Shown here in pieces: positions 17,946-33,141 of a DNA stretch of 35,700 nucleotides; the stretch's first letter is position 1; each line of letters opens with the position of its first letter. The stretch spans positions 1-35,700 of the IMG/VR virus record IMGVR_UViG_3300048034_000036; one strand, given 5' to 3'. The DNA comes from a virus. The notes below the pieces were generated by a model. That model was not told the origin of the DNA, did not search any database, and saw only the letters and a program-made list of their open reading frames with translations. The translations under genes were made by a program, and so were the position numbers.

Positions 17946-18320
17946 CTAATTATAATTCCAATAAACATCAGCATTTTCTTCGCCTTCTAAAACCCTAACT
18001 ATAGAATGCTTTGCTTCAATAAACTCGCATTTATAAATTGGCGGCGTTTCTAGTTTTGGCTGTTTATGAATGGTTTTGTTGTATTTTGGCTTAAAAAAAT
18101 CAATCAAAGTGCGCTCATGTTCATTTACGTCGTAATACTGGTCAGTAAAAATCTCTTGACAGTAAACTTTTTTAACCTCTGAAAACCAATGCTTTGATCC
18201 TTTGTGTTGAGCAACGCGTTGATGAATATCTTTGGTTCTGCCGATATATAAATATTCATCTTCATCGTTCATGAAGCAGTAAACATAATATGGCCCGCTA
18301 TAGCCTATGATATATGACAT
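17946..18320 (-). CDS. GIY-YIG family endonuclease
   Basis: From ATG 18320 the product has 124 residues. The GIY-YIG signature is seen as Y12-V-Y14 and Y25-I-G27. R35 (IHQRVAQH), the metal-binding E69 (NEHERTLI) and N81 (PKYNKT) fit the family's active site. Such nucleases nick or cut DNA; free-standing phage versions may act in homing, repair or host DNA degradation. An in-frame GTG three codons upstream is possible, but the ATG overlaps the stop of the small membrane peptide upstream (TGATG), which favours it. No separate DNA-binding domain is obvious. Confidence 0.82.
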   Translation of the reverse strand: MSYIIGYSGPYYVYCFMNDEDEYLYIGRTKDIHQRVAQHKGSKHWFSEVKKVYCQEIFTDQYYDVNEHERTLIDFFKPKYNKTIHKQPKLETPPIYKCEFIEAKHSIVRVLEGEENADVYWNYN

Positions 18321-18412
18321 CACATCCACCCCATGCTAACGCCAAAGATCCAGCCTAACACCACCGCAGCAATCGCCGCAGTGATGATGATGTCTTGTAC
18401 CCAATTAGTCAT
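18320..18412 (-). CDS. 30-residue membrane peptide
   Basis: This short frame starts at ATG 18412 behind GGAG with six bases between. It encodes MTNWVQDIIITAAIAAVVLG followed by WIFGVSMGWM. Nearly the whole length is one membrane helix. Its start overlaps the end of the zinc-finger gene upstream, and its stop TGA shares a base with the GIY-YIG start. Tight coupling on both sides makes it a real gene. The function is unknown; small phage membrane peptides often modulate host envelope processes. Confidence 0.6.
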   Translation of the reverse strand: MTNWVQDIIITAAIAAVVLGWIFGVSMGWM

Positions 18413-20387: not shown

Positions 20388-20813
20388 ATGAATAAAGTTG
20401 AGATCCAAGTGTCAGGACAGCCCCAAGGAAAGGGTAGGCCACGCTTTACGCGCACTGGTCACACCTACACCCCGCCCAAGACAAAAGAGTATGAGGCTCG
20501 TATTCAAGCAGCAGCATGGTCAGCTATGAAACAGCATGGCCTAGAGCCGACAGACAGGCCCGTACACGTTGATCTGGTGGCCTTCATGGACATACCTAAG
20601 TCATGGCCCAAGATGAAGCGCCTAGAAGCCGAATATGGAGCCATACGCCATATGAGCAAGCCTGATTTGGATAACATTGTTAAGGCTGCGCTTGACGGGA
20701 TTGTTGGGAAGGTAGTGCTGGATGACAAACAGGTTCACAGCATCAGAGCCAGAAAAGTGTATTGTCATCCTGAGCGCGGGCCAGTTCTCTATATTTCGGT
20801 TGAGTGGGAGTAA
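20388..20813 (+). CDS. rusA: RusA-type Holliday junction resolvase
   Basis: This 141-residue protein carries the RusA signature: N-terminal QPQGKGRPRFTRTG and the metal-binding motif SKPDLDNIVKAALDGI with D93 and D95, followed by D112/D113 (VLDDKQV). The C-terminal strand VLYISVEW is also typical. RusA homodimers cut four-way junctions in symmetric pairs and would resolve recombination intermediates or branched DNA before packaging. It is encoded on the plus strand inside an otherwise minus-strand block. Its 3' end overlaps the convergent HNH gene by 25 bases. Confidence 0.93.
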   Translation: MNKVEIQVSGQPQGKGRPRFTRTGHTYTPPKTKEYEARIQAAAWSAMKQHGLEPTDRPVHVDLVAFMDIPKSWPKMKRLEAEYGAIRHMSKPDLDNIVKAALDGIVGKVVLDDKQVHSIRARKVYCHPERGPVLYISVEWE

Positions 20814-21115
20814 CTGTAATCTGGCCCATAAGTTTCGCGCCAAAGTTTCGGTTCACGATGCAGCGCGATTTTGGATGTGTCAAAAAGACCCTGATGATGT
20901 CCTTCACATAAAGGGATACAACTTGTATCTGGGCGCTTCTCAGTGCCGTGACGATCATGGATCGGGTGATGGGCTTGGGTAGCGCTTTTCTGCACTTCCC
21001 CAAACCTCTCACAGACACAGCACGGCTGTTCTCTTACCCATCGCAAAAACTTTACGCTTTTTTTGTCTTTAGGCTTTTTTAGGCCCAACGGTGGTTTGTT
21101 CGCAAGATTTGCCAT
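20789..21115 (-). CDS. HNH-type nuclease-like protein (DUF968/Ref-like)
   Basis: This 108-residue protein has a zinc-knuckle start (REQPCCVCERFGE, C32/C33/C35), then TQAHHPIHD (H49, H50) and IPLCEGHHQGLFD (C70, H73, H74). This order is typical of short HNH proteins related to DUF968 and the RecA-dependent nuclease Ref of P1. The basic N-terminus (LGLKKPKDKKSVKF) may bind DNA. It probably nicks or cuts recombination intermediates. It overlaps the RusA 3' end and follows the gene upstream by five bases. Confidence 0.75.
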   Translation of the reverse strand: MANLANKPPLGLKKPKDKKSVKFLRWVREQPCCVCERFGEVQKSATQAHHPIHDRHGTEKRPDTSCIPLCEGHHQGLFDTSKIALHREPKLWRETYGPDYSYSHSTEI

Positions 21116-21120
21116 TCTTC

Positions 21121-21603
21121 TTATCTCAATATTGGTAGTTTAGTTATATCAAACACATAGCTGATTTTTGCGTTTCCTTGCATGTCATTCTTCCTATGCT
21201 GATATTCGTGTTTGTGCATATCCCCATCTTTGAGCATTTTTCGGAAGTGGCTTATCGTGCCGAAATGTATTGCTTGATATGCAGTGAAGCTTACATCAAA
21301 AACGATTACGATGTTCGGGTAAAGTTGAGCATATCTGCGCAAGTCTTTTTGATTGATTGAGACTGCGTGGTTTGGGTCAATGCTAAACTTATCTTGTGCA
21401 TATATCCAAGGAGTGCGGATTGTCTTTAAGTCGCAAGGCATGTTGATACGCATATCAAAGGTGTATTTGTCTAATGCCTTTTCTGGGTTCATGCTTAACA
21501 CAGTATCCTTGAAGATGTGCGCATTTATAAATTCCACTTCCTGCTCCTCGCCAAGTGCGCACCAACTAAGCTTGTCCTCGTTATCTAGCGGCGAGTGGGT
21601 CAT
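21121..21603 (-). CDS. Putative PD-(D/E)XK nuclease
   Basis: This 160-residue protein has a helix with acidic residues (CALGEEQEVEFINAHIF, E20/E22/E24), a strand with D50 (YTFDMRI), a strand with D58-L-K60 (MPCDLKTIRTP), and a following helix with INQKDLRRYAQ. The order matches the PD-(D/E)XK core. VIVFDVSF gives a further core strand. Phage enzymes of this class include exonucleases that pair with annealing proteins, fitting the ERF-like gene upstream. Assignment is by motif only. It overlaps the next gene's end by about 23 bases. Confidence 0.5.
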   Translation of the reverse strand: MTHSPLDNEDKLSWCALGEEQEVEFINAHIFKDTVLSMNPEKALDKYTFDMRINMPCDLKTIRTPWIYAQDKFSIDPNHAVSINQKDLRRYAQLYPNIVIVFDVSFTAYQAIHFGTISHFRKMLKDGDMHKHEYQHRKNDMQGNAKISYVFDITKLPILR

Positions 21604-22003
21604 ATCCTATTGCCTCCGATAGCTTTTCCATAGCTGCCTCAAAATATTTCATAAAATCTTGCTGGCTCATCTGATCAAACGAAATGCTGTTTGGAATACG
21701 CATAAACTCTTCAGCCATTTCATTGTATTTCATTGAGTAATAGCCACACGCAAATTTTAGCTCATCGTGCAGATGTTTTTCTGTGGGCCATTTGCCAGTG
21801 TCTTTGCATACGTTGCGCAGCGCCGCCCAATAGAGATTGTGATGCGGGTTGGATCTCTTGCCGGTAGATGTCAGGTTAAAAACTTGACCATCAGCAAAAT
21901 CTTCCATGCGCTGTGCATCGTATTGGGAAACGGGCAATAGCTGCCCGCTTCTTAGTTGAACTTGAATTTTAGGCACTTGCCCGCCAAACTCTGATTTTGT
22001 CAC
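21581..22003 (-). CDS. DUF1367-like phage protein
   Basis: This 140-residue protein has the pattern LLPVSQYDAQRMEDFADGQV, then KRSNPHHNLYWAALRNVCKD, then LHDELKFACGYYS. It resembles DUF1367 proteins found beside NinB-type recombination genes of lambdoid phages. The function is unknown, though location suggests a DNA recombination role. The start is uncertain: GTG 22003 has only a close AGAAG, and a later GTG (12 codons on) has GGCGGG in front. Overlaps the gene upstream by 35 bases at the longer start. Confidence 0.65.
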   Translation of the reverse strand: MTKSEFGGQVPKIQVQLRSGQLLPVSQYDAQRMEDFADGQVFNLTSTGKRSNPHHNLYWAALRNVCKDTGKWPTEKHLHDELKFACGYYSMKYNEMAEEFMRIPNSISFDQMSQQDFMKYFEAAMEKLSEAIGYDPLAAR

Positions 22004-22273: not shown

Positions 22274-22630
22274 CTAAAAGGGGATTTCGTCATCCACATC
22301 ACTATTGGGCGCTGGAGCTTGATGATCGGTGTACTTTACCGGCTCCGCAGAACGCCCACCAAGCAGCTTAACTTCTGATGGCCTGACACCTAAGAAGGTC
22401 TTGCCGTTGTACTCACGGGTCTTTAAATCGCCTGTCACGGCTACTTGCGTACCTTTGGTTAAATACTGCGCTACCTGTGTGCGGTTGTAAGATACATCAA
22501 AGAACATCACGCCTTTGTTTTCTCCCCATCCATCATCAACTGCGACAGAAAAGGTGACAAATCCCCCTTTGTCGTTCTGACGAACTTCACTGTCCTTGGT
22601 GAGACGCCCAACAATAGTAATTGCTTTCAT
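22274..22630 (-). CDS. ssb: Single-stranded DNA-binding protein
   Basis: This 118-residue OB-fold protein starts MKAITIVGRLTKDSEVRQND and continues with strands FVTFSVAVDDGW, MFFDVSYN, QVAVTGDLKTREYNGK and TFLGVRPSEVKLL, typical of bacterial-type SSB. The C-terminus DDEIPF is the acidic tip that recruits partner proteins. It protects single strands during phage replication and recombination. Its ATG overlaps the stop of the annealing protein gene upstream. Confidence 0.93.
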   Translation of the reverse strand: MKAITIVGRLTKDSEVRQNDKGGFVTFSVAVDDGWGENKGVMFFDVSYNRTQVAQYLTKGTQVAVTGDLKTREYNGKTFLGVRPSEVKLLGGRSAEPVKYTDHQAPAPNSDVDDEIPF

Positions 22631-23789: not shown

Positions 23790-24470
23790 ATGTCAAATCA
23801 CACTTTCAATCCAGCAATTGCTTGCGCTGTAGGCGTCAACGCTGCTGTCATTTATCAAAACATTCTGTTCTGGACAGAGAAAAATGCAGCGAATAATCGT
23901 CATAAGCATGAGGGCGCTTACTGGACGTATAACAGCATCTCAGCGTTTGAGCAGTTGTTTCCATACCTATCGGCAAAGCAGATCAGAACAGCACTGGCTG
24001 CGCTTGAGAATGCCGGTCTTATTATCTCTGGTTCGTTTAATAAATCAGGTTACGATAGGACTAAGTGGTACTGCCCCACAGGGCAAGTCGATCTGCCCCA
24101 CAGGGCAAATGGATTGGCCCCAGAGGGCGAACCTATACCAGATAATAAACCAGTTAATAAACAAAGTAATAATATTAGAGATATTTTATCTACTTGGTTG
24201 ATGAATGAAGAAGCTGCTGACAGTTTCATTTCATATCGCAAATCTATCAAGAAACCGCTTACAGCAACGGCTGCTAAAAGATTGTCTGAGAAATTAAGGT
24301 GGATCTTCGTCGGTGGTGGTGAGCCATCTGATGCCTTGGCTATGTGCGAAGAAAAGGGATGGCAGAGCATAGAGGTTGAATGGTTTTTCAAATCACTGCA
24401 TGGTGAGAAATCTGATAGCTACAAAAAAGCTATGACAAATATTGAGCAAGCAAAACGGGAGACAGTATAA
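23790..24470 (+). CDS. Putative replication initiator (winged-helix type)
   Basis: This 226-residue protein has an N-terminal part like phage replisome-organiser winged-helix domains (NPAIACAVGVNAAVIYQNIL, then AYWTYNSISAFEQLFPYLSA, then IRTALAALENAGLIISGSFN). A Pro/Asn-rich linker (residues about 95-125) carries three DNA repeats. A C-terminal alpha-helical domain (ILSTWLMNEEAADSFISYRK, then ALAMCEEKGWQSIEVEW) follows. The layout matches lambda O-like initiators, whose origin lies within the gene. SD AAAGGGG precedes the ATG. The following gene overlaps it by one base. Confidence 0.7.
   Translation: MSNHTFNPAIACAVGVNAAVIYQNILFWTEKNAANNRHKHEGAYWTYNSISAFEQLFPYLSAKQIRTALAALENAGLIISGSFNKSGYDRTKWYCPTGQVDLPHRANGLAPEGEPIPDNKPVNKQSNNIRDILSTWLMNEEAADSFISYRKSIKKPLTATAAKRLSEKLRWIFVGGGEPSDALAMCEEKGWQSIEVEWFFKSLHGEKSDSYKKAMTNIEQAKRETV
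24072..24130 (+). repeat. Three 22-bp-spaced iterons inside the initiator gene
   Basis: Copies at 24072-24086 and 24094-24108 are identical (TGCCCCACAGGGCAA). A third at 24116-24130 matches at 12 of 15 bases. The spacing is exactly 22 bases, about two helical turns, and each copy is itself an inverted repeat (TGCCC-CACA-GGGCA). Since 22 is not a multiple of three, the repeat is not a protein repeat: selection acts on the DNA. Most likely the initiator binding sites of the replication origin. Confidence 0.75.
24131..24200 (+). other. AT-rich stretch next to the iterons, probable origin unwinding element
   Basis: Directly after the third iteron the sequence turns strongly AT-rich (for example AATAAACCAGTTAATAAAC and AATAATATTAGAGATATTTT) while still coding for the linker of the initiator. 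Iterons followed by an AT-rich segment inside an initiator gene is the lambda-type origin layout. Inferred, not proven. Confidence 0.55.
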
Positions 24471-24958
24471 TGGATTATGGTCAAAGAGTAGAAATGATTA
24501 AGCGGCATCTCGCAGCAATGTTAAGCAGCTATGCCATCCCTAGCCATTTGCGTAGCAGCGAGACAGCGCAGCAAGATGAGATTGATGTAACGGCAAAGGC
24601 TCTTAACCAGCTTTTCCCAAACGAGACTACGCCAGATCATCTTGCAGGTACGTTTGAACGCGCAGCGCTAAAGATTAAGGCGGCTCACACTTCACGCTCA
24701 TGGCCTAAAGCTTCTGACATAGCAGCGGCTATTAAGAGTTGCTTTGATAAAGCCAGTGGCCGTGAGGTTGCCTCTGGGCCTTGGAAGCCCGACACTTACA
24801 AGATCAATGCTGATAGAATTAAACGCGGCGAGCCTGTCGGTGATAATTGGGTCAACGGTAAGATGGGCGAAGCACTGGTAGAGAGAGGGCTTGTAACCGA
24901 TCAGGATCTCCTGCCATACCGCGAGGCAATAGGTTTTGCAAAACGCTTTGAGGCGTGA
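24470..24958 (+). CDS. Putative replication partner (helicase-loader-like)
   Basis: This 162-residue protein directly follows the initiator with a one-base overlap. N-terminal helices (MIKRHLAAMLSSYAIPSHLR, then VTAKALNQLFPNETT) and AALKIKAAHTSRSWPKASDI are followed by a flexible part and a C-terminal helical segment (VNGKMGEALVERGLVT). The layout fits small phage proteins that follow initiators and recruit the host helicase. There is no ATPase motif, so it is not a DnaC-like loader. The helicase-loader role is inference from position. Ends just before a strong terminator. Confidence 0.55.
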   Translation: MDYGQRVEMIKRHLAAMLSSYAIPSHLRSSETAQQDEIDVTAKALNQLFPNETTPDHLAGTFERAALKIKAAHTSRSWPKASDIAAAIKSCFDKASGREVASGPWKPDTYKINADRIKRGEPVGDNWVNGKMGEALVERGLVTDQDLLPYREAIGFAKRFEA

Positions 24959-32088: not shown

Positions 32089-32856
32089 ATGGCGGGTTAC
32101 ATTGGAACCAAGGCGGTAAACCTTAGCACCACGGCTGCGAATGTTGGCGGCGATGCTGACATTGGCGGTGATCTAACGGTAGACACAAGCACCCTGCACG
32201 TTGACAGCGCGAATAATCGGGTGGGCGTGGGGACGATTTTGCCTAGTGACGTTTTACATGTCGTGACGCCGACTTTTGGAGGCATGACGCTTGAATGTAC
32301 AGGCGCAACGGCTGATCCAACGTTTAAGTTTTTAGGTGACAGTGGCAATTACTGGTCACTACAGCAAGACGCAAGTCAGGGTGACAGCTTTCAGTTTCGT
32401 TATAATAACTCGGAGAAGGTTCGCATCGACTCCGCTGGCCGTGTCACAATGCCGTATCAGCCAGCGGCGTTTGTTGCAAAGGACAACGGGGGCGGTTGGA
32501 CGACATTTAGCGGGACTATGGTATTTAATGATGTGAAATTAAATCGAGGCAACTGTTATAACAGTTCTACGGGAATATTTACCTGTCCAGCAGCGGGTGT
32601 ATATCGTGTTCATGCAGAGGCTTTGACTGGCAATGTAACTACATCCTGTCATGTTAAAGTTTACAAAAACGGATCATCCGTCGTCGCAAGCGGCGCACAC
32701 TCAAACTACCAAGGCTCCACTTACTATACTATTGGAACAGAAGCCCTAGTTCAGTGTGCCGTTAACGATCAGTTAAGTGTGTTTATGTCGAGTAGTAACA
32801 ACGCACTTTATCAAAACACGGACTACGCAAAAGCGACCTTTATGATGGTAGGATAA
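32089..32856 (+). CDS. Tail fibre with C1q-like C-terminal domain
   Basis: This 255-residue protein has an N-terminal 'MAGYIGTKAVNLSTTAANVG' block followed by stalk repeats (DADIGGDLTVDTSTLHVDSA), then an intermediate beta domain. The C-terminal ~135 residues look like a C1q/TNF-like trimer domain: MVFNDVKLNRGNCYNSSTGI, FTCPAAGVYRVHAEALTG, and the closing DYAKATFMMVG. Such tips can bind polysaccharides. The AGGAGG of the next gene follows directly. Confidence 0.75.
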   Translation: MAGYIGTKAVNLSTTAANVGGDADIGGDLTVDTSTLHVDSANNRVGVGTILPSDVLHVVTPTFGGMTLECTGATADPTFKFLGDSGNYWSLQQDASQGDSFQFRYNNSEKVRIDSAGRVTMPYQPAAFVAKDNGGGWTTFSGTMVFNDVKLNRGNCYNSSTGIFTCPAAGVYRVHAEALTGNVTTSCHVKVYKNGSSVVASGAHSNYQGSTYYTIGTEALVQCAVNDQLSVFMSSSNNALYQNTDYAKATFMMVG

Positions 32857-32868
32857 TAGGAGGCAACA

Positions 32869-33141
32869 ATGCCAAACATCACAATCACACTGACAGACAC
32901 TCAGCTTAAAGGCTTAGAGTACGTTGCATTATCTCCACAAGACTGGGCTGAAAACGCAGTTACTAACCGTGCGAGAATAGCCAGTGACGAAATCATCTCA
33001 ATGTACACCAATCGTGCGTTAGATGAAGGCGTACAAATCCCAGCCACCCGTGAGCTTATTGTAGCTGATGCCTTTACACGAGGCTGGGCGCAGACAGCGG
33101 CACAAGTGCAGTCTGAAGCTGAGGCACAGGAGACACCCTAA
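32869..33141 (+). CDS. Small helical protein within the fibre cluster
   Basis: This 90-residue protein starts MPNITITLTDTQLKGLEYVA and has a helical body (DWAENAVTNRARIASDEIIS, then AFTRGWAQTAAQVQSEAEAQ). The start pattern is known from small phage proteins that accompany tail fibres as likely chaperones or connectors. The binding site is AGGAGG. The stop overlaps the next ATG. Confidence 0.65.
   Translation: MPNITITLTDTQLKGLEYVALSPQDWAENAVTNRARIASDEIISMYTNRALDEGVQIPATRELIVADAFTRGWAQTAAQVQSEAEAQETP

Follow-up and report, generated by a model that had tools for sequence, protein, structure and literature searches.

Genes of the locus

The window, as we call the DNA analysed here, spans 35,700 bases of a virus record and showed no terminal repeat of 12 to 200 bases. 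The gene of interest lies at 23790–24470 on the plus strand and encodes a 226-residue protein, annotated here as an O-like winged-helix replication initiator. It matched phrog_11233 ('replication initiation protein') with an E-value of 3.8e-34 and phrog_678 ('replication initiation O-like') with an E-value of 1.5e-21. No Pfam family matched at E 0.1, including PF04492 (Phage_rep_O) and PF06970; lambda O and P22 gp18, used as positive controls for PF04492, both matched that family. A sequence search of the PDB with the initiator profile gave no chain at E up to 1.

The initiator was modelled with AlphaFold from 26 aligned sequences (mean pLDDT 74.3). Codons 1–94 (23790–24071) encode a predicted N-terminal winged-helix DNA-binding domain, with pLDDT values below 50 at residues 1–3 and 84–90. 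To judge from the winged-helix fold, the helix formed by residues 62–74 (23973–24011) is probably the recognition helix; the codon for Lys63 is at 23976–23978. Codons 95–126 (24072–24167) encode a linker that is predicted to be disordered, residues 96–126 all falling below a pLDDT of 50, and it is this part of the gene that carries the repeats described below. The remaining codons, 127–226 (24168–24467), encode a C-terminal helical domain, which the model folds into six helices from residue 129 to residue 225 and which we propose may contact the helicase loader or the replisome.

When the N-terminal domain was compared with solved structures using VIA-align, the top four rows were all N-terminal domains of pSK41-type RepA proteins (RepA_N), with 88–92 residues aligned: 4pql (Z 10.3), 4pt7 (10.0), 5kbj (9.5) and 4pta (9.1). 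The next row, another protein, had a Z of 8.9, so that only 4pql and 4pt7 were a full unit higher. The same four structures ranked first in Foldseek, with E-values of 0.013 to 0.11. The RepA_N domains thus appear to be the closest solved folds, by a small margin, and a general winged helix would also be a possible description.

A second gene (24470–24958, plus strand) shares one base with the initiator stop codon, beginning on its final base, and encodes a 162-residue protein whose model had a pLDDT of 85.6. Lambda P (9oa1_Z) was the first VIA-align row for this model, with a Z of 9.7 over 87 residues and an rmsd of 2.7, the next row being at 8.1; in Foldseek lambda P was a weak match at rank 6 (E 1.5, probability 0.16). 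The protein matched no PHROG and no Pfam family, including PF06992, which lambda P does match, and a PDB sequence search gave only two pilin-like chains (E 0.058 and 0.68). On this moderate structural match it is a candidate lambda-P-like helicase loader. In several relatives (L019, L022, L027–L029, L031–L034 and L038) the same place after the initiator is taken by a different family of proteins of ∼155 residues, and the L027 member of this family matched neither Pfam nor PHROG.

About 25 of the window's proteins, a part of its ORFs, were scanned for matches to known families. Telling matches were obtained for an SSB (22274–22630, minus strand), a NinB/Orf-like protein (21581–22003, minus), RusA (20388–20813, plus), an HNH-type nuclease (20789–21115, minus) and a GIY-YIG protein (17946–18329, minus), as well as for a terminase, portal, scaffold, another virion protein, an amidase and small regulators. 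The nearest relatives of the terminase, at 46–49% identity, are from Methylophilales phage Venkman, an uncultured phage and Pelagibacter phages. The GIY-YIG protein also matches T5orf172 at about the cut-off; the origin-directed nuclease of ICP1 is described in PMC8263062 as a T5orf172 nuclease domain fused to a RepA_N-like domain. None of the scanned proteins matched a polymerase or a replicative helicase, in line with the expectation that the phage lacks both and as would suit a phage relying on the replisome of its host.

Three dyad iterons and an AT-rich tail in the initiator gene

The iteron array starts at codon 95, 282 bp into the coding region of the initiator. Iteron 1 (24072–24085) and iteron 2 (24094–24107) have the same sequence, TGCCCCACAGGGCA, and form perfect dyads in which a 4-bp centre separates two 5-bp arms. 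Iteron 3, GGCCCCAGAGGGCG (24116–24129), differs from iteron 1 at three positions; the outermost dyad pair is broken and GCCC/GGGC is retained. All three lie on the plus strand with start-to-start spacings of 22 and 22 bp, and no other 14-mer with fewer than three mismatches was found elsewhere in the window. The three iterons are translated in three different frames, as CPTGQ, LPHRA (LPHRAN with the following residue) and APEGE, and the encoded peptide is therefore non-repetitive. The original prediction, made from the letters of the window, had described a three-copy element at exact 22-bp spacing, with two identical copies, a third differing at three positions and a protein that is not repetitive there, all of which we found at starts 24072, 24094 and 24116. 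It had also described every copy as an inverted repeat, which is fully true of iterons 1 and 2 and fails at the outermost pair of iteron 3.

The three-dyad array exceeds what is expected by chance. Scored as a three-copy 15-bp repeat with any period from 15 to 60 bp, it reached 39, compared with 31 for the best score elsewhere in the window and with a mean maximum of 28.9 (highest 32) in 200 Markov-1 simulations of the window.

Adjoining the array is the AT-rich stretch that had been described after the iterons. This tail (24130–24192, plus strand) has an AT content of 79%, compared with 54% for the window, and contains three 12-bp direct repeats with a period of 12 (24137–24172; ACCAGATAATAA, ACCAGTTAATAA and ACAAAGTAATAA) that are 83% identical over 24 compared bases. 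By nearest-neighbour energy, the 50 bp at 24143–24192 are the least stable of all 35,650 fifty-bp windows. The equivalent stretch was ranked for instability within its own locus in 23 loci of the family and, with the best of four offsets taken for each, fell between the 94.6th and 100th percentile (median 99.7th). We propose that the tail may serve as a duplex unwinding element. A switch in GC skew had been suggested as a further mark of an origin. The sign does change near 23–24 kb, close to the array, but the genes to the left of the flip run leftward and those to the right run rightward; the skew tracks gene direction, and we therefore rejected it as evidence.

Conservation of the array at the DNA level

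One scan confirmed 566 stretches with relatives of the initiator, of which the best 80 were examined. A separate scan for relatives of the initiator of Pseudoalteromonas phage H6/1 found none. To follow codon usage we took 45 relatives gathered with protein patterns placed outside the array, apart from one that ends at the array's first codon, and reduced them to 23 non-redundant sequences, the window included. Synonymous codon identity, defined as the codon identity at places where two proteins share the amino acid, was 83% for codons 95–114 and 93% for codons 115–126, compared with 44% for codons 2–94 and 47% for codons 127–226. The AT-rich tail is therefore at least as constrained as the iterons themselves.

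Pairing within the dyads was then scored in non-redundant homologs, 29 of 31 of which could be anchored on the tail (the exceptions being L240 and L243). In 26 distinct sequences, the inner four pairs of iteron 3 form in 92, 77, 85 and 81% of cases, compared with 70, 42, 69 and 45% after shuffling, and between two and four types of pair occur at each. In iterons 1 and 2, pairing is in excess at positions 3, 4, 5 and 7. Pairing was no better than in shuffled sequences at positions 1–3 of iteron 3, at positions 1–2 of iterons 1 and 2, at position 6 of iteron 1 and, marginally, at position 6 of iteron 2. Shuffling leaves relatedness in, and we give more weight to the variety of pair types than to p-values. 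In the sequences compared, the inner arms covary, changing jointly on both sides of the dyad. The codon identities and this covariation both speak for the selection at the DNA level that had been proposed.

Two variations on the dyads were also seen. In a sister clade (L008–L017), codons 95–113 carry one mutated arm each in iterons 1 and 2 (..GGTCA and TGACC..); these two arms are complementary to each other, and the initiators are still 91–93% identical overall. In several relatives, L026 and L027 among them, a further dyad (GGCAAAT..ATTTGCC) made up of the spacers is interleaved with the iterons, which arises because each iteron is a dyad.

Alternatively, the dyads could act as hairpins in the initiator mRNA, regulating its translation or stability, and not as DNA-binding sites. 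Each dyad could make a 5-bp stem with a 4-nt loop, and pair 3/16 of iteron 3 is of the G-T type, tolerable in an RNA stem, in 13 of the 26 distinct sequences. At the inner four positions of iteron 3, G-T occurs in only 0 to 3 of 26 sequences, yet one position in iteron 2 has it in 5 of 23. Hairpins would have no need of the observed spacing, which is 22 or 23 bp in most cases. Synonymous sites are more constrained still in the AT-rich tail, where no such dyads were found, and the arms follow a residue of the predicted DNA-recognition helix (see below). We consider this hairpin reading very unlikely.

When viral contigs were scanned with a pattern, 85 stretches were found to carry two such dyads at a distance of 22 bp. 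The array-bearing set comprised 63 distinct initiator-like ORFs. It includes L195, a false hit of 574 residues with low-complexity-like repeats that was dropped from the codon counts, from a first classification of the arms and from the tree described below. Spacings were confined to 21 to 24 bp by the seed pattern, and within that range the 131 intervals of the 63 ORFs measured 22 bp in 111 cases, 23 in 13, 21 in 5 and 24 in 2. Without L195, the arrays have 2 to 5 copies. In a scan of viral contigs with a variable gap, distinct pairs among the matches listed peaked at 22 bp (16) and 23 bp (14), with 8 or fewer at any other spacing; coding repeats whose spacing is a multiple of three account for many of the remaining hits, and we use this spectrum as support only. 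A scan of genomes gave 12 stretches, six of which lie in winged-helix initiator-like ORFs (L225, L227, L229, L231, L232 and L236). Five others (L226, L228, L230, L234 and L235) look like unrelated repeats and were set aside, and L233 has an array with no long ORF across it.

The common 22-bp arrays encode peptides in the order CP..GQ, LP..RAN, AP..GE. In five ORFs with two 23-bp steps (L134, L171, L190, L199 and L211) the order is LP, CP, AP, and thus the same dyads encode different peptide orders. The frame of the last iteron is nearly fixed, being the same in 60 of the 63 ORFs (60 of 62 without L195), with L047 and L099 using another frame. This may reflect some constraint on the peptide or simple inheritance, and is in part explained by a stop codon that one other frame of the tail meets (ACC TAT ACC AGA TAA); L047 and L099 use the tail's remaining frame.

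The near-fixed frame speaks in favour of the peptide linker as the conserved entity, with the DNA repeats as its by-product, since the last iteron and the tail together mostly read A-P/Q-x-G-E/K/R-P-I/L-P in those 60 ORFs. Against this, codon choice is set by the register: alanine appears as GCC in one frame but as GCA in a second, and glycine as GGC in one and mostly as GGG in another. These counts are from 62 ORFs selected by DNA pattern and are biased; the argument rests on the 23 protein-selected sequences, where synonymous identity is high. The five ORFs with swapped peptide order, the changed last frame of L047 and L099 and the predicted disorder of the linker also count against a by-product of the peptide, which we regard as extremely unlikely.

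The claim that related phages keep the iterons in their DNA while the peptide varies was largely supported, by the codon identities, the covariation, the 23-bp arrays and the six of ten named phages that retain a 22-bp repeat with dyads of other sequence. It did not hold in L043 and L044, which have homologous initiators and a PIP tail with no recognisable array at the aligned place, or in two of the named phages described below. L043 has threonine at position 63, and its near-copy L044 aligns likewise.

Comparison with known origins and a proposed mechanism

We compared the locus with four known systems. As in lambda, where the origin lies in gene O, tandem dyad iterons about two helical turns apart are found inside the initiator gene, an AT-rich stretch lies beside them and the next gene, which here encodes the candidate P-like loader, overlaps the initiator stop. 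Lambda has four iterons, at 39034, 39054, 39078 and 39101 (spacings of 20, 24 and 23 bp), as opposed to three at 22 and 22 bp, and the dyad sequence is unlike that of the window. Both initiators match phrog_678, whereas PF04492 is matched by lambda O (E 5.7e-36) and not by the window initiator at E 0.1. According to PMC7466680, lambda O exists as dimers, its minimal binding sequence is a 19-bp inverted repeat, and two iterons with the AT-rich region are enough for unwinding. The P22 origin (annotated at 32840–32984) is likewise inside an O-like gene, gene 18 of this Salmonella phage, and we found a 24-bp repeat within it. It differs in repeat sequence, in that gp18 matches PF04492 and in a next gene annotated as similar to DnaB helicase.

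The RepA initiators of pSK41 and pTZ2162 (RepA_N) share with the window initiator the N-terminal winged helix, their fold being the nearest solved one. In pSK41, as described in PMC5703833, the rep boxes are central in the rep gene, in the part that codes for the linker, and a helical C-terminal domain follows; the linker can be deleted when the origin is supplied, and the C-terminal domain binds the host DnaG primase. The candidate boxes here similarly lie inside the initiator gene, in the stretch that codes for the predicted linker (residues 96–126, pLDDT below 50). The window initiator differs in being a phage gene with a P-like candidate downstream and in having no PF06970 match at E 0.1. 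Annotated RepA_N members come mostly from Firmicutes or their phages, according to PMC7145576. In the PLE satellites of Vibrio cholerae, the DNA-binding domain of RepA and the origin are reported in PMC8263062 to covary and to be exchanged as a module, comparable to the link between helix and iterons found here (see below). The PLE origin, from the same source, is non-coding and has three repeats of about 30 bp, in contrast to the array inside a gene in the window.

In its architecture the locus groups with oriλ and the RepA_N origins; by Pfam sequence family the initiator belongs with neither. The term 'lambda-type' used in the original prediction is therefore apt for the architecture and not for Pfam membership, given the lack of a PF04492 match at E 0.1 and a DNA-binding domain that is closest in fold to those of the RepA_N plasmid initiators.

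The array, its DNA-level conservation, the covariation of the inner arms, the duplex instability, the position in the linker and the association with a recognition-helix residue were computed here. With the conservation, the covariation and the 23-bp arrays in its support, the arrangement is very probably what it was predicted to be, a phage replication origin embedded in its own initiator gene, at which initiator binding, unwinding and helicase loading would take place. The winged-helix domain would bind each dyad as a dimer, and the 22-bp pitch, about two helical turns, would line up the three dimers along almost the same side of the double helix. The resulting complex may then melt the adjoining AT-rich stretch at 24130–24192, and the C-terminal domain, together with the protein of the next gene, may recruit the replicative helicase of the host, a step we propose because the scanned phage proteins match no polymerase or replicative helicase. 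As the array lies in a stretch coding for a flexible linker, the protein can tolerate the constraint on its DNA.

Autorepression is common among initiators, and dyads are what a dimeric regulator would be expected to bind; the repeats could in principle be operators for such autoregulation, with the true origin elsewhere. An operator array would here lie 282 bp inside the coding region, next to the window's least stable 50 bp and in a stretch with conserved synonymous sites, and the same layout serves as an origin in lambda and pSK41, as described in PMC7466680 and PMC5703833; we judge operators to be highly improbable.

Association of residue 63 with the iteron arms

To relate the array to its putative reader, we compared residue 63 of the initiator, at the start of the predicted recognition helix, with the arms of the dyads. 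A motif allowed 142 of 152 loci to be read (the ten missed being L298, L351, L353–L356, L360, L361, L363 and L364), and removal of near-copies left 39 non-redundant initiators that came from protein searches or named-phage matches. Lys63 occurs with GCCC dyads in 17 of these and with degenerate GCCC sites in two (L042 and L302); 20 have neither, and none has GCCC without the lysine (Fisher p 3e-9, with relatedness uncorrected). Some of the 20 are without any clear array (e.g. L043, L244 and L246), and 'no GCCC' is not equivalent to 'another dyad'. A first automatic classifier of the arms, which often caught another dyad such as GGCAAAT..ATTTGCC and put nine Lys initiators outside the GCCC class, was replaced.

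In the set selected by DNA pattern, 59 of the 63 ORFs were readable by motif and all have lysine at position 63. For L107 and L115 the printed motif was shifted and the lysine was read from the sequence, for L054, L095 and L110 it was identified by eye, and L195 is the false hit. The Lys cases include arrays from Oscillospiraceae, Erythrobacter, Mycolicibacterium and Actinomycetota contigs. Two actinobacterial genome contigs (L231 and L232) carry GCCC arrays inside distant winged-helix ORFs that have lysine at the matching position.

On a tree of 65 rows, built with the recognition-helix columns included, Lys63 and GCCC need 11 changes each and agree in all 63 scored rows, L042 and L302 being excluded from the count as Lys initiators with degenerate sites. 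Of these rows, 26 had been picked by the GCCC pattern, hence only their lysine is informative. Strongly supported independent pairs numbered only two, both in the expected direction and too few for a test. Across the sequences compared, Lys63 thus appears to accompany GCCC arms; this is a correlation, and new here. A search of open-licence papers, covering titles and the openings of abstracts, found no account of this array family or of a Lys63 rule.

Close pairs of initiators show where such changes are concentrated. Between L019 and L021, residues 4–59 differ at 1 of 56 positions and residues 60–76 at 9 of 17. Their DNA identity drops from 90% to 51% at the helix and is 57% over the iterons, 81% over the tail and 77% over the remainder. 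For L038 and L027, the same five segments are 88, 57, 66, 93 and 88% identical. The concentration of differences in the helix is clear in these two pairs and in L019/L022, and weaker in L038/L031 and L038/L034 (6 of 17 residues, compared with 6 of 56 and 5 of 56). The 500–600 bases 5′ of the gene are only 40–66% alike in close pairs, and this much lower identity indicates that the stretch shared by close pairs is the gene itself. The pattern is as expected of a cassette of helix plus site, and suggests that it is either swapped or co-evolving; either route would produce it.

Tentatively, and at somewhat less than even odds in our estimation, the recognition helix and the iterons may form a single specificity cassette of ∼160 bp (23973–24129 in the window) that switches or is exchanged as a unit. 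Lysine at the start of the helix would specify GCCC/GGGC arms and other residues would specify other arms, making the sequence of the origin predictable from the initiator. With the origin lying within the gene, reader and site would stay together through recombination, which would explain such a placement in replicons as different as lambda, pSK41 and this family.

To our knowledge, the origins of phages known only from metagenomes have rarely been mapped. A candidate is readable here from the sequence, in an initiator family that is large, with relatives in the 566 stretches noted above. If the link between Lys63 and GCCC reflects a real contact, it would provide a rule predicting which initiator fires which origin, would predict compatibility between phages, prophages and satellites, and would offer a testable reason for the location of origins inside initiator genes.

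Repeat arrays in named phages

Ten named phages were examined for repeat arrays. No clear array was found in Psychrobacter phage D'Alembert or Phage C75C1, and the best repeats of BcepMigl and phiLdb were at 45 and 47 bp. The other six have a 22-bp repeat with other dyad sequences. Pseudoalteromonas phage H6/1 has three copies of the TTTGTCAATAACGACAAA type at 22 bp, and Flavobacterium phage elemoE has a 22-bp repeat of the TGTGCAGAAATGCACA type. Among the Vibrio phages, 1.213.O and 1.198.B share a AGCCAAACGGCT-type repeat and 1.247.A has one of the GTTCAAAATCAAAC type, in each case at 22 bp, and the same spacing separates the TGCAAAATGCAA repeats of Bacteroides phage BF698P1.
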